Shown here piece by piece: positions 23,778-64,000 of a stretch of 64,000 nt of DNA. The notes beneath the pieces were generated by a model. That model searched no databases. It worked only from the letters and a program-made list of their open reading frames with translations, and was not told where the DNA came from. The number at the start of each line of letters is the position of its first letter. Position 1 is the first letter of the stretch. Source of the DNA: Chlorobiaceae bacterium (GTDB lineage Bacteria > Bacteroidota > Chlorobiia > Chlorobiales > Chlorobiaceae); contig JAAXWO010000002.1 in NCBI GenBank assembly GCA_013334965.1, positions 124,001 to 188,000 on the forward strand. Direction: 5' to 3'. Position numbers and translations under genes: made by a program.

Positions 23778-24716
23778 TTGAAAAAAGAGATTATCATCGG
23801 CACTCGCTCCAGCCCACTTGCCTTGTGGCAGGCTGATTTCACCAAGGCAGAGCTTTCAAGGCATTTTCCTGAACTCAACATCACGCTGAAGCTCATCAAG
23901 ACGACGGGCGATGTGCTGCTCGACTCTCCCCTTTCAAAGATCGGGGACATGGGACTCTTCACCAAGGACATCGAAAAACACCTGCTGGCAAAAGAGATCG
24001 ACCTTGCAGTACACAGCCTCAAGGACGTACCGACCGGAACGCCTGAAGGACTTGTCATAACCTCGTTCACCGAGCGTGAAGATACCCGTGACGTCATCAT
24101 TTCCAAGTCTGGAAAAGGCATCAAGGACCTTCCGCCGAACGCCAGGATGGCAACAAGCTCGCTCCGCAGGATGTCGCAGCTCCTGAGCATGCGTCCCGAC
24201 CTGCAGATCCTCGATATCAGGGGCAACCTGAATACCCGCTTCAAGAAGTTCGATGACGGCGAATTCGATGCCATGATGCTTGCCTATGCCGGTGTCTTCC
24301 GCCTTGAGTTCAGCGACCGCATCTCTGAAATCCTGTCGCACGAAGTGATGCTTCCCGCCGTCGGTCAGGGTGCGCTCGGCATCGAGACCCGTACGGACGA
24401 CGCTGAGACCAGGGAGATCGTCAGGGTGCTCAACGACGGCAACACTGAAATCTGCTGCCGCGCAGAACGCTCGCTTCTCAGGCACCTGCAGGGCGGATGC
24501 CAGATCCCGATCGGATGTTACGGTTCATACGTCGCAGGCACGCTGAAGCTGCTGGCCTATGTCGGTTCTGTGGACGGCAAAACCGCCATACGCAACGAAG
24601 TTACCAGGGCAGTCAGCACTCCTGAAGAGGCAGAGGCTGTCGGTATTGAACTTGCCGAAATCCTGTTGTCGATGGGTGCGGAAAAGATTCTTGCCGATAT
24701 CCGCAAAACCCGCTGA
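23778..24716 (+). CDS. hemC: Hydroxymethylbilane synthase (porphobilinogen deaminase)
   Basis: A 312-residue enzyme that polymerises four porphobilinogens. [14 protein letters not shown] is at the N-terminus, [17 protein letters not shown] carries the catalytic aspartate, and [12 protein letters not shown] and [13 protein letters not shown] follow. [10 protein letters not shown] holds the cysteine that anchors the dipyrromethane cofactor. The start is TTG at 23778. Its stop overlaps the hemD start (TGATG), indicating translational coupling. Confidence 0.96.
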
Positions 24717-25456
24717 TGAAAACAGTTCTCGTTACCCGCCCGAAACATCAGGCTGAGCCTTTTGTCAGGGAGCTTGAGCAGTACGGCCTGAACGCGGTTG
24801 TCTTCCCGACAATCGAGATCAGGCCGGTTGCCGGCTGGAGAGTACCAGACCTAAGCCGGTTCTCCGGCATCTTCTTTACCAGTCCCAACAGCGTCCAGTT
24901 CTTCCTTGAGAGACTCCTTGCCGAATCAAGGGAGGAGCTTGACAATCTCAGGCGCCTCAAAGTCTGGGCCGTTGGAAAAACGACCTCTGCCGACCTCGAA
25001 AAGCACGGCATCGTCACTGAACCAATTCCCAAGATTGCCGATGCAGTCAATCTCATGGCCGGGATCGACCCCAGAGCCATTGAGGGTAAAACCATCCTTT
25101 TCGTAAGGGGAAACCTTTCGCTGGGCACAATTCCGAAACTGATCGCCGAACGCGGCGGAAGGTGTGAGGAACTGACCGTGTACGACAACATCCAGCCATC
25201 CCAGGAGGATACCGAACAGGTCAGGAGCATGCTGCTGGGCGGGAAACTCGACTGCCTGTCCTTCACCAGCCCTTCGACTGCGATCAACTTTTTTGAGGCC
25301 ATGGGCTCCAAGGCTTTGCCTGAAGGCGTACTCATCGCAGCCATTGGCACAACCACCTCCGGTGCACTCGAAAAACTCGGCATCAAGGTCGACATCATCC
25401 CCGAATATTTCGACGGCCCGAACTTCGCAAAAGCGATCGCCAAAGCACTGAACTGA
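24716..25456 (+). CDS. hemD: Uroporphyrinogen-III synthase
   Basis: A 246-residue two-lobed protein that closes hydroxymethylbilane with inversion of ring D. The family is poorly conserved. Visible marks are [17 protein letters not shown] at the N-terminus, [51 protein letters not shown] and [20 protein letters not shown]. The start overlaps the hemC stop by one base. Context (hemA-hemC-hemD) makes the call secure. Confidence 0.93.
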
Positions 25457-44586: not shown

Positions 44587-46404
<1,818 letters not shown>

Positions 46405-60049: not shown

Positions 60050-60312
60050 TCATTGCTTAATCCGGAGCCTGCATTTGAATTGCCGAGCTGGGGCTCGGCT
60101 TTCCCAGGGCTTTGGCGTTCCTGATTCTTCTTTCGAGATAGCCTCATCCGTTCGTCCTTAGGAACTCGCCCCATCGTCTCCATGATCAGTATCTGACCTG
60201 GAATTGGGTGTTAATGGGTGTGTTATTGGATCAGATCTTCCAGCTTTCCAACAAAAAGCGACCTACGACAAAATTCAGCAGGCTGTCATAAGTGTACTTA
60301 ATAAAGAGCGTC
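60050..60312 (+). repeat. Degenerate direct repeat, copy B
   Basis: The partner of 59251-59512. Identity is interrupted by single-base indels: an AT insertion near 60190 and a one-base loss near 60255. These break the reading frame seen in copy A. Confidence 0.8.
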
Positions 60313-60401
60313 CCCTTGTATTCTCAATCCTCGATCACCTCATCATCGGCAGCACCGGCACCTACTTCAGCTTCCGTGAATCCGGCCTCATTCCCTCATA
60401 G
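60182..60401 (+). pseudogene. Frameshifted remnant related to the small ORF of copy A
   Basis: Compared with copy A, the ATG (60182) is kept, but a two-base insertion and a later one-base deletion scramble the middle. A related frame resumes as ATYDKIQQAVISVLNKERP and continues to a stop at 60399-60401 (LDHLIIGSTGTYFSFRES part). It is likely a decayed coding remnant. The original gene is unknown. Confidence 0.35.
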
Positions 60402-60740
60402 CCCATAATCACAGCAGGCCGGGAACCCCCGGCCTGCATCTTCTTCCCGCGACCACAGCGGAAGCCATGGCGCTCACCGCTCCGTCCGCAAGCAAAAAAT
60501 CACGCCAACAACATCGGAAAACTTCAAATTCCTGAGTACCTTTTCTTCATATACTCATCAAAAACAGGCTCGGACAAGTGTTCTTATGCTGATCAGCATA
60601 AAACGCAGAAATAAATCGCAACGCAGCAGTTAATTTATTTCCAAGTAAAAGGTTGATGGCTTTTTGAATTTTGTATGTATTGCGTCTTATGTGGGTTGTA
60701 ATTCAAAAATCCGCAGCTTATGCGGATCAATCTATTTATT
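60402..60740. other. AT-rich intergenic region before the cassette array
   Basis: No gene is seen. Base composition becomes AT-rich from about 60530. A short stem TCCGCA/TGCGGA at about 60709-60726 lies just before the first GTTAGGC core. Confidence 0.45.
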
Positions 60741-60747
60741 GTTAGGC
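60741..60747 (+). other. Left cassette boundary core (GTTAGGC)
   Basis: GTTAGGC matches the integron core consensus GTTRRRY and lies four bases before the first cassette ATG. Upstream sequence does not show a full attC and could be an attI or a worn attC. Confidence 0.55.
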
Positions 60748-60750
60748 ATC

Positions 60751-61353
60751 ATGAGTGATACTGCGCACGCTATCTGGCCGCCTTACGAAATTTTCTACAT
60801 CAGTAGCATGCAATTCAATTGTCAGTCTGCCGTGCGCTCCGTGGCTCGCGTGTCTCGGGTGTTTGAAAAGTTGCCGCCGCAGCCGACACACGACGATATT
60901 GCCGCGCTACCCACGCAAAGCATACTTAACGAGCTTCAAAATATTGTTGCCCAAGGTGCTGCGCTGTCTCGCTACTTCTGGCCAGTCCGAAAGGGCCACG
61001 AGAATCGGGCGGACCATTTGAAACGCACTCTCTCCGTAGATGAAGCCAGTCCGCTCTACGACCGGAATCTAAGAAACGCAATTGAACACTTCGACGAAAG
61101 GCTTGATAAATACCTTGGTGCCGGGCTTGTCGGTTACATATTTCCTGAGTTCGTTGGCCCTCGTCCCGCCGAGGACGGAGTTGCGGGGCACTTCTTTCGT
61201 GCCTACTTCGTCGATGTTGGCGTCTTCCGGCTTCTTGATGAAGAGTATCCCGTGGAGCCTTTAGTCCAGGAGATTCTTCGCGTCAATGACTTGCTCGAAA
61301 CCATGTCGTCTCAGGGCGGACGCCTTAGCACGTGTGTTAGCCATGATGCATAA
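60751..61353 (+). CDS. Integron cassette protein 1 (HEPN-like motif)
   Basis: A 200-residue protein not recognised by name. It is mostly helical by composition. RNAIEHF near residues 108-114 fits the RNxxxH active motif of HEPN ribonuclease-fold proteins, followed by an amphipathic helix DERLDKYL. Its TAA stop lies inside the inverse core of the following attC, the usual cassette arrangement. HEPN proteins often act in toxin-antitoxin or abortive systems, but no antitoxin gene of the usual kind adjoins it, so the function is inferred weakly. Confidence 0.6.
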   Translation: MSDTAHAIWPPYEIFYISSMQFNCQSAVRSVARVSRVFEKLPPQPTHDDIAALPTQSILNELQNIVAQGAALSRYFWPVRKGHENRADHLKRTLSVDEASPLYDRNLRNAIEHFDERLDKYLGAGLVGYIFPEFVGPRPAEDGVAGHFFRAYFVDVGVFRLLDEEYPVEPLVQEILRVNDLLETMSSQGGRLSTCVSHDA

Positions 61354-61416
61354 CCTTTCAGTCGAGCGGACCTGCTGCGCGAAAAGCCGCGCAGGCCGCT
61401 CACTTTCACGTTAGAC
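61348..61416 (+). other. attC-like recombination site 1
   Basis: The inverse core GCATAAC (61348-61354) and core GTTAGAC (61410-61416) bracket a strong hairpin. GAGCGG-A-CCTGC-TG-CGCG pairs with CGCGCAGGCCGCTC, leaving extrahelical bases on one arm only, as in folded bottom-strand attC sites. Confidence 0.85.
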
Positions 61417-61430
61417 CTAAAGGGGAAGGT

Positions 61431-62153
61431 ATGTGTGATCTTGTATTTTCGATGCAGGAATTGCTAAAAATTGTGCCGGGGATCGCAATATTTCCACTTT
61501 CGTTCTATCTAGCATGGAAGAAAATCGGGGAGAGTGTTTCGTGCTCCGTAACCATATCGACGAGCAGGATTAGTGCGGGAAGAGTAAGTGCAGTCGTTGT
61601 AACAAATCACAAAGACAAGCCCATAACAATATTTGAGATTCAGGCGGTATCAGATAACGACATAACGTTTGTTGTCGAAAAATTCGATCTCCCATTGGTC
61701 ATAAAGGCCTTGGAGACCGTCACCATTGATGCAAAGCCATACTCCGCGCTTCTTGTTGACGGGAACAAGTGGGAGCCAGATTTGATTGGCCAACAGAAGA
61801 TAGATATCTATCTGGTAACGCCGAGGAAGACTATCAAATGCAAAATGCTCTCCCATCCAACGCTAGATAAGATCCCCGAATTTGAGAAGTATCGGCAGGC
61901 AATAAAAGTCAATAAAACTTACAACGGCATTGCGTACAACGAGAATGCTAAGTATGCAATTACGTACAAGGATGCTGAAGGGGTTAAAACGGCAATCGTT
62001 GATATCTTTGGATTCATAAATGGCGAATGGAGATTTCGCTACAACATGATTCCCGCAGAGCACATGCTCTCGGTGGATGGGGTTAGAGAGTTCCTCAGGG
62101 TGTCCCGTGCCGCAGAGGCATTGCAGATATATGGCGTGGATCAGCTGCTTTAG
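61431..62153 (+). CDS. Integron cassette protein 2 (membrane-anchored, unknown)
   Basis: A 240-residue protein with an N-terminal hydrophobic anchor (IVPGIAIFPLSFYLAW, about residues 14-30) and a strand-rich soluble part. AAGGGGAAGGT precedes the ATG. Codon use is more AT-rich than in the rest of the window, consistent with recent transfer. The TAG stop abuts the next inverse core. No family is recognised. Confidence 0.65.
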   Translation: MCDLVFSMQELLKIVPGIAIFPLSFYLAWKKIGESVSCSVTISTSRISAGRVSAVVVTNHKDKPITIFEIQAVSDNDITFVVEKFDLPLVIKALETVTIDAKPYSALLVDGNKWEPDLIGQQKIDIYLVTPRKTIKCKMLSHPTLDKIPEFEKYRQAIKVNKTYNGIAYNENAKYAITYKDAEGVKTAIVDIFGFINGEWRFRYNMIPAEHMLSVDGVREFLRVSRAAEALQIYGVDQLL

Positions 62154-62217
62154 GTCTAACAATTCGCTGCAGGCGCGACGGCCCTAACGGGCCGCGGCCT
62201 GAGCTTGGGCGTTATGC
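62154..62217 (+). other. attC-like recombination site 2
   Basis: The inverse core GTCTAAC (62154-62160, an exact RYYYAAC) and core GTTATGC (62211-62217) enclose a GC-rich hairpin. CAGGC...CGGCCC pairs with GGGCCG...GCCTG around TAAC. The beginning TCTAACAATTCG is the classical attC start. Confidence 0.85.
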
Positions 62218-62295
62218 TGACACACGCTTCACGTGAGCTGACCTGCAATGGGAGCACGACTTGAATATTCGCAGCCTCAACACTACTGGATACTT

Positions 62296-62925
62296 ATGCA
62301 ACTCACGCTTGTCGGAACAGTTCACGCGGAGACGGGCTTAGCGACCAGCAATGAGTTGCTAAAAATTCTTGAGCGCCTGAAGCCTGAAGTCATCTTTGCC
62401 GAGATCCCGCCGAGCTACATTGAGCAATATTGTGATGGTTCACACGGAACACTTGAAGCGGTAGCTGTGGCTCGATATCAAGAGGGCCACCAAATCGCAG
62501 TTATACCCGTCGATCTAGAGAAGCCTGAGGATGCGTTTTTCTCATATGCTCAGGAGTTGTTTGATAAAGTTGAGCGTACGAGTCACTACTATCGCCGACT
62601 GATGGACCAGCACAACCTCGACACTCGTACAGGCGGTTTCCCTTACTTGAACAGCGATCGCTGTATCCAAGCGTGGGTTGATATCCATGGCGAAGTTCAA
62701 GCCACACTGGACTGGATTGGCAATCCGCTGCTGCACAAGATTTACAGCAGATGGTGCATGCAGAACGAACTCCGCGACACAGGAATGGTGGCGAAGGTTG
62801 TTGACTACGCTGATCGCAATGGTCAGGTACATGGCGTGTTTCTCTTTGGTGCGGCGCACATGAAATTCATCCTCGAGAAGACACGAATGCAATTTGGTGA
62901 CGATGTATCTTTAAAACTTGGCTGA
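62296..62925 (+). CDS. Integron cassette protein 3 (TraB/PrgY-like domain)
   Basis: About 209 residues starting MQLTLVGTVHAETGLATSNE. The N-terminal LVGTVH, KPEVIFAEIPPS, IPVDLEKPED and the C-terminal VFLFGAAHMKFIL resemble the TraB/PrgY/GumN group of metal-dependent peptidase-like proteins, with the GTxH and C-terminal GxxH motifs. The remainder is unrecognised. An ATG at 62248 in frame would add 16 residues and is closer to the attC core, so the start is uncertain. Confidence 0.55.
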   Translation: MQLTLVGTVHAETGLATSNELLKILERLKPEVIFAEIPPSYIEQYCDGSHGTLEAVAVARYQEGHQIAVIPVDLEKPEDAFFSYAQELFDKVERTSHYYRRLMDQHNLDTRTGGFPYLNSDRCIQAWVDIHGEVQATLDWIGNPLLHKIYSRWCMQNELRDTGMVAKVVDYADRNGQVHGVFLFGAAHMKFILEKTRMQFGDDVSLKLG

Positions 62926-63665
62926 ACCATCTCAGCGAAAGCGGAGTGCTTCGATGATGCGGCATAACATCTCAGTCAACCCGGATCCGGGGGGAACTTG
63001 GGGGACGTTCCTTGGGGGACGTTCCTGAATTCATCAACTTACCAGATGCGGCAGACTACCGACGTCTAATCAAGAGCCCGTAAGCAATAGTCCCTTGACA
63101 ATCTATCACCGTGGATCGTGCAAGGTCAAAGCGGTCAAGGTTCATCAACTTGTTCCAGGCCGCCACAAAAATCATCAACGAATTTCTGCTGCGAATTGAT
63201 GTATACGTCGAGGGCAGCTGCCGCCCGGCAGGACCCAAGTAACGCTCATGACTACGTGCATTTACAAGCAAAAGCAGGGATTTGAGGGGTGCTCCTGAAA
63301 ACATCCACGGCCTACAAACAGCAAATGGCAAGCAGAGTAACGATATTCATTACCCTTACCGTCTCCTGACAGGTTGTTGTCCGGCAAGCATGACATGAAA
63401 AATGTCGGGGCCTTACGGCTTGGATTGGCGGTTAGAACCCGGCGTTCCCGGGTTGAAAATCACACGCGGACCTGATCTGGAACTGGAATTCAGGCAGATG
63501 CGTTGTTCCGCTTTGCTCTTTTGGATGGGTAAAGCAATGCAATCGCACCAGGGAGGGCTTGCCTGATGCAGAAGGTGAGAGGTTCAGCACAAAACTTTCG
63601 AGGTGATGCGTAAAAACGTCGTTCAGGGAAACGCCGTTTCACTCCAGGGTAATCGACAGAGCTCC
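62926..63665. other. Right flank of the cassette array: truncated attC half and transposase-like flank
   Basis: GCATAAC at 62962-62968, followed by ATCTCAGTCAACCCGGATCC, matches the left arm of attC1 (GCATAACCTTTCAGTCGAGCGGACC), but no right arm or core follows. From about 62990, AACTTGGGGGACGTTCCTTGGGGGACGTTCCTGAATT resembles sequence I know from flanks of REP-associated IS200-like transposases. No intact transposase gene is seen. A possible remnant reads FQAATKIINEFLLRIDVYVE on the plus strand around 63155. No complete gene is supported in this stretch. Confidence 0.5.
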
Positions 63666-63947
63666 TCAGCTGACCATACTGCAAAAATTGGGGTTCACTA
63701 CCCAGCAATTGTTGCCTACCGAGAAACAGGTCGAGCCTGAGAACGCCCAACAGGTTCCGCCAACCACCTCGGAGAGCTGGCAATCGAAATCCTCCTGCTC
63801 ATCCAGATCCTCCTGGGTAAAAAGGAAACCTGCGTTTCTGATTGCGGTCATGCGCTCTTCCGGCTCTTCAATGGCCAGGATGCGTTCGTGAAACGCCTGA
63901 TCCGTTTTCATCCTTTCGATGAATGCCTTTGCATGTTCAACTGACAT
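63666..63947 (-). CDS. Nif11-type RiPP precursor peptide with Gly-Gly leader and four-Cys core
   Basis: A 93-residue peptide. The start ATG at 63947 is set by CGGAGG five bases upstream. Residues 1-60 form a Nif11-like leader: MSVEHAKAFIERMKTDQAFH, then EEPEERMTAIRNAGFLFTQE. The leader ends with LSEVVGG, a double-glycine processing site (Gly63-Gly64). The 29-residue core (65-93) has Cys66, Cys74, Cys81 and Cys89, evenly spaced by 6-7 residues, plus two Trp, three Phe and seven Ser/Thr. Such leaders are typical of lanthipeptide-like (prochlorosin) and related RiPPs. Whether this core is lanthionine-bridged or carries another modification is unknown, since no modification enzyme lies within the window. 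Confidence 0.8.
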   Translation of the reverse strand: MSVEHAKAFIERMKTDQAFHERILAIEEPEERMTAIRNAGFLFTQEDLDEQEDFDCQLSEVVGGTCWAFSGSTCFSVGNNCWVVNPNFCSMVS

Positions 63948-64000
63948 GGGAACCTCCGGGGTATGGTTTGCCAATCGTTGGCGATTGACAGTTCAAAGCT

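Follow-up and report, generated by a model that had tools for sequence, protein, structure and literature searches.

How does a row of gene cassettes come to stand in a green sulfur bacterium with no integron integrase beside it? The window, that is, the whole 64-kb stretch of DNA that was analysed, corresponds to positions 124001–188000 of contig C6 (229 kb) in a genome of 2.48 Mb assembled in 20 contigs. Within it the initial annotation had described three same-strand cassettes and two complete attC sites, and had interpreted them as an integrase-less integron cassette array (CALIN).

To search for attC sites, a covariance model (R1) was trained on 15 examples from resistance cassettes carried by annotated plasmids, with the window contributing no sequence to it. 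Scanned against the entire 64 kb on both strands with E values up to 10, R1 gave two matches and no further ones: attC 1 (61348–61416, plus strand, R'' GCATAAC and R' GTTAGAC, 40.3 bits, 2e-8) and attC 2 (62154–62217, plus strand, R'' GTCTAAC and R' GTTATGC, 37.6 bits, 1e-7). The covariance-model check that had been proposed for this locus has thus been run with an independent, plasmid-derived model and, instead of an absence of attC hits, it returned both of the claimed sites at exactly the coordinates given. The bottom strand of either site forms an attC-type hairpin (z -3.05 and -3.60, respectively), in which a single base bulges out between the L'' arm and its partner, as is usual in attC. 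Both sites possess the features by which attC is recognized: R''/R' and L''/L' pairs, an imperfect hairpin and extrahelical bases. The stop codons lie at the inverse cores as described, that of gene 1 (TAA, 61351–61353) falling within the R'' core GCATAAC and that of gene 2 (TAG, 62151–62153) immediately 5' of GTCTAAC. Rfam at its gathering scores found no attC in the window, its sole match being a TPP riboswitch (44587–44684, RF00059, 62.8 bits).

Of the three same-strand cassettes originally claimed, the three genes and the two complete attC sites stand, but cassette 3 ends in a half-site (62962–62984, plus strand). By direct reading this consists of R'' GCATAAC (62962–62968) and an L''-like arm, AGTCAACC; R1 gave no match at this end of the cassette. 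Directly after the half-site the array is bounded by a GGGGACGTTCCT repeat (62985–63030, plus strand). This GGGGACGTTCCT / GGGGACGTTCCTGAA repeat family bounds both the window array and an array on contig C14, and a pattern search of the genome with GGGGACGTTCCT located it at seven places, four of them exact (C6:187015; C14:20644 and 21639; C12:328428, 330551 and 330697; C20:15487), the reversed control giving none.

The products of the three genes have no family match in Pfam, NCBIfam or PADLOC; PHROG likewise has none for cassettes 1 and 3, and a PDB search with these two proteins gave no convincing match. The gene of cassette 1 (60751–61353, plus strand) specifies a protein of 200 aa with an RNAIEH motif, which we take to resemble the HEPN RX4-6H motif. 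It shows 77.6% aa identity to a protein on pTs485, a plasmid of Ca. Thiodictyon syntrophicum, and 37% to proteins from Alteromonas plasmids. At the DNA level cassette 1 and pTs485 are 76% identical over 465 bp, and this homology begins exactly at 60741, the G of GTTAGGC, which is GTTATGC in the Thiodictyon copy. A cassette is a mobile unit bounded at G^TTRRRY, and here the edge of the Thiodictyon homology falls at that point and the stop codons abut R''. Around the plasmid homologues of the cassettes, the Thiodictyon gene included, R1 found no attC, and a fold test of the stretch 5' of the Thiodictyon gene showed it not to be attC-like. Cassette 1 ties a green sulfur bacterium to a purple sulfur bacterium (Ca. 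Thiodictyon syntrophicum) from a meromictic lake. The gene of cassette 2 (61431–62153, plus strand) codes for 240 aa with a hydrophobic N-terminal stretch; its product matches phrog_14996, of unknown function (4e-16), and has approximately 31% aa identity to Acinetobacter plasmid proteins, while a search for viral relatives found none. The gene of cassette 3 (62248–62925, plus strand, 225 aa) may start at 62296; from residue 16 its product is 52.5% identical to a Paraburkholderia plasmid protein.

The array lies next to proB. In the nearest relatives homology at this locus ends at proB, and none of the relatives searched has the exact window locus. Perfect conservation of the genes as ordinary chromosomal neighbours, which the initial annotation had named as counting against its claim, was examined at proB, and the array is not conserved chromosomal synteny. 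Directly downstream of it (63666–64000 and beyond; L011 1666–9572) is a RiPP-like cluster made up of a Nif11-domain precursor, a SPASM-like radical SAM protein, a secretion protein and two ABC transporters; the cluster is syntenic in genome G018, there without a cassette array.

The GTTAGGC before the first gene had been listed as a core. It is present (60741–60747, plus strand) but is not a loose one, being the R box of an attI site, whose junction with the cassettes, G^TTAGGC, forms the 5' boundary of cassette 1. As an attC this stretch was ruled out, since it gives no R1 match and is attI by homology. The attI module (60576–60743, plus strand, about 168 bp) was recognized from a profile, blastn, alignment and intI adjacency, and has the simple site at its right end. 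R2, a sequence-only profile of the module, gives the window copy 122 bits, this copy being among its training sequences. Using blastn, 60590–60750 of the window shows homology in 26 of the 61 genomes searched, its own counted, and on its own contig C14. An alignment of 22 copies has 171 columns ending at GTT and is ungapped except that one row lacks three end columns. In a set of 56 copies the 60 bases 5' of GTT are conserved at about 1.3 bits each on average; the next four positions, the cassette-side RRRY, have 1.1, 0.9, 0.3 and 0.4 bits, and beyond them the value falls to about 0.05. Such a drop past GTT is the profile expected if sequence beyond G^TT is exchangeable.

Three relatives with an intact intI, defined as a TIGR02249 match over the cut-off, have the module starting only a few bases from the intI stop codon, on the same strand (G026, G032 and G035), and weaker module matches lie 3' of intI in G006 and G027; G013 was left out of this comparison because its contig end is too near. 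The right end of the module is laid out as in attI1 of class 1 integrons, a simple site with an L box, a 3-nt spacer and the R box GTTAGGC. Compared with attI1, the Chlorobiales module is of greater length and contains inverted repeats, and no homology between the two was seen outside the core. The module is quasi-palindromic, its profile matching its own opposite strand over columns ~15–130, and has TATAAGANGC / GCGTCTTATA arms some 75 bp apart; these features may represent accessory sites for the integrase, an operator or an attenuator. A terminator-like hairpin is found at 60709–60727 within the window copy, and a search of its plus strand for a cassette promoter (Pc) of the sigma-70-like kind, from which promoters of Chlorobi may differ, found none. 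Further upstream is the 3' remnant of a RadC-like (JAB) gene (60204–60401, plus strand; Pfam RadC, E 0.0026, below the gathering cut-off), and the block formed by this radC end and attI is also found in G030 and G035 (blastn of 60328–60749 to L047/L091 and L045/L090). Judged by these comparisons, the array is one that begins at a true attI and not a set of cassettes at a random site. Because a complete attI has been kept, it would be an integron which lost, or never had, an integrase in cis.

Of the components of a complete integron the window locus thus has the attI site and lacks an intact intI. The statement that no intI is visible in the window is borne out and applies to the whole genome: searches with TIGR02249 and Phage_integrase revealed nothing over the TIGR02249 cut-off, only Xer-like recombinases and a C-terminal IntI remnant on C14. 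Tyrosine recombinases on C20 and C12 were considered as IntI and rejected, their TIGR02249 matches being piecemeal and far below the cut-off. In other genomes there are IntI-like tyrosine recombinases which match TIGR02249 at both ends and skip positions ~180–238, the region of the IntI-specific domain (among others G016:C1:1799443–1800261, G020:C1:2299992–2300810 and G006:C170:28509–29327).

With at least two attC sites and no intI nearby the window array falls within the CALIN class (PMC9024848), which it also resembles in its same-strand single-gene cassettes; it differs in keeping a complete attI and in having homologous attI sites elsewhere in the genome and the family. The R1 matches, together with a gene order that is not conserved synteny, uphold the CALIN interpretation first proposed, with the addition of attI. 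At the level of sequence we consider it confirmed that this is a genuine integron cassette array, one that has no integrase and contains two or more true attC sites.

There are two other such places in the genome. On C14 (L004) an attI (24862–25029) lies between the IntI C-terminal remnant (RTVQELLGHNDVR.TMIYTHVLNRG, reverse strand) and same-strand cassettes with attC sites at 23801, 22734 and 21872. These cassettes specify a protein of unknown function, an Mrr-like nuclease and a TIR/ThsB-like protein. On C3 a weak attI-like sequence (82253–82401, 24.7 bits) is associated with attC sites at 83062 and 83978, the former scoring 40 bits yet folding poorly, and with genes having DUF4145, HNH/SAVED-effector-like and AbiJ-like domains. 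By their similarities (TIR/ThsB-like, HNH effector-like, AbiJ-like) the cassettes of both arrays resemble genes for defence against phages. A ribonucleotide-reductase-like ORF ends just before the C3 attI (L175 3–3305); it contains a LAGLIDADG-like stretch, presumably an intein. Counting the window array, this genome appears to have at least three attI-plus-cassette loci; its attC counts are lower bounds, R1 having scored 150 of 725 candidates and missed both window sites.

The module is widespread among relatives. R2 has matches in 32 of the 42 genomes tested, with 16 in G035, 15 in G027, 14 in G030, 11 in G020, 8 in G003 and 5 in G012, counts which are approximate and include weak matches. 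The exact core pattern occurs at 18 loci among 84,980 species genomes, all in Chlorobiaceae or Chlorobiales, and has zero matches in IMG/VR; a blastn comparison of the module with plasmids gave no match. The module therefore appears to be confined to the Chlorobiales and to be multi-copy, with up to 16 copies per genome. When the attC sites up to 3.5 kb from 62 attI copies were tallied, 33 of the 35 shared the strand of their attI and lay downstream of it (p 5e-18 for an expectation of one in four); at 37 of the 62 copies no attC was detected within this distance. The single-contig genomes G003, G012, G016 and G020 each contain several modules and no intact intI. Genomes with an intact intI average 9.5 modules versus 4.1 for those without (Mann-Whitney p 0.015, uncorrected for phylogeny). 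Where intI remnants occur 5' of attI they always represent the 3' part of the gene (56–133 residues), isolated 5' remnants not being seen; this comparison took in copies L138, L132, L133, L137, L141, L149, L151, L154, L155 and L136.

What, then, loaded these sites? The window array comprises attI, three cassettes, two complete attC sites and one half-site. Its cassettes would have entered at G^TT of attI through the tyrosine recombinase IntI (attI x attC), which is no longer encoded intact in this genome. The Chlorobiaceae attI module would be a multi-copy docking site dispersed over the chromosome, and where a copy has no intI of its own, cassettes were probably inserted and removed in trans by an IntI whose gene lay at another place in the cell. 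Later loss of intI, in this genome as in others, would have left the arrays frozen. The sequences themselves show the attC and attI sites, the junctions, the number of copies, the lack of an intact intI and the differing cassettes at orthologous attI loci without intI; that IntI made the insertions at G^TT, that it worked in trans and that the arrays are now immobile is what we infer from them. Taken as a whole, we regard it as very probable that 60576–62984 is an attI-bearing, integrase-less array which was loaded by IntI, belongs to a set whose intI-less copies were probably served in trans, and is now frozen.

The evidence for action in trans comes from attI loci other than that of the window, which can be compared between species. 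At locus A (G003, G015, G020 and G002) more than 3 kb of upstream DNA, with approximately 84–93% identity, is continuous up to attI, and the four species have in common the same short intI 3' remnant (GTCGATGGGCTGTGAGC, ~20 bp). From attI to the point where downstream synteny resumes there are about 840 bp in G015, 970 bp in G020 and 1920 bp in G002, and in G003 synteny is not resumed within 7 kb. The DNA in this interval is unrelated from one species to the next, and the junction coincides with an attC in both G015 and G020. Differences of a similar kind were seen at loci B, C and E, in sets of two to five species. Since the intI tail is shared, the cis intI at locus A would have gone before the species split, and later changes of cassettes would then have needed either IntI in trans or precise lineage-specific loss. 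Deletions from a larger ancestral array, differing by lineage, could mimic exchange in trans; on the sequences compared we prefer action in trans. That a single IntI, which some lineages have kept and others have lost, acts in trans on as many as about 16 scattered attI sites, each with a short array, has in our estimate somewhat better than an even chance of being correct.

The main competitor is that a complete intI-attI integron formerly stood at every attI locus and that intI decayed or was deleted locally, with no action in trans. Formation of CALINs through loss of intI is an accepted route (PMC8618304), and the 3' remnants of intI which many attI copies retain are what such decay might leave. 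Against this, the one tail common to four species at locus A is followed by differing cassettes, all starting at G^TT. We hold purely local decay to be a distinct possibility, although a doubtful one.

A mobile repeat of fixed length, either MITE-like or a promoter element, unrelated to integrons and beside some cassettes by chance, would also be multi-copy and quasi-palindromic and could have several different left flanks, as the ~168-bp module does. Such an element would hardly abut the 3' ends of intact intI genes, have its neighbouring attC sites so consistently downstream on the same strand, or end at a GTT followed by cassette-like RRRY and an abrupt loss of conservation, and we consider it unlikely. 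Off-target insertion of cassettes into an ordinary chromosomal GTT is another listed route to a CALIN (PMC8618304) and would involve no attI; it is already contradicted by the homology of the module to the intI-adjacent attI of relatives and is very improbable. Least probable of all is a draft-assembly artefact in which an adjoining intI was split onto another of the 20 contigs, since the array lies well inside a 229-kb contig and is preceded there by an uninterrupted 60 kb, no contig has an intact intI, and the four single-contig genomes likewise have several attI and no intact intI.

Loading of dispersed attI sites by IntI in trans, which remains our preferred reading, can be set beside what is already on record. 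Integrons have been recorded in Chlorobi and in Chlorobium phaeobacteroides (PMC2426708, PMC9024848, PMC3607928), so that the suggestion that they are scarcely described in green sulfur bacteria needs qualification; it is multi-copy attI that was not found described. The intI of C. phaeobacteroides groups with that of Treponema, in which intI is transcribed toward attI (PMC3607928). The loci studied here resemble these sedentary chromosomal integrons in that intI precedes attI and has the same orientation as the cassettes, its 3' end adjoining attI, in the relatives with intact intI and at the C14 remnant, the window locus being without intI; they differ in having many attI per genome, mostly without intI and with few cassettes each. 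Xanthomonas integrons likewise show an inactivated intI, frozen arrays and CALINs at conserved secondary positions of the chromosome (PMC12444791). From the part of that account available to us, the CALINs away from ilvD are described with no attI named, in contrast to the present loci, every one of which is recognized by its attI module. A survey of the literature on multiple attI sites and on green sulfur bacterial integrons, in which subscription journals were thinly covered and which is therefore weak evidence, encountered no description of dispersed attI. Integrons in Chlorobi are thus known, and a multi-copy, dispersed attI, making up a distributed multi-attI integron, is apparently new.

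Integrons are normally described as having one integrase, one attI and one growing array, and one attI per integron has been stated explicitly (PMC3607928). Because orthologous chromosomal loci that differ in their cassettes are already available, the loading of intI-less attI sites in trans is directly testable. If this reading is true, apparent CALINs would be docking sites and not debris, and captured genes would be spread across many chromosomal positions instead of being held in one long array. Should the whole family use many attI per genome, the limit on the number of cassettes near a promoter would change.
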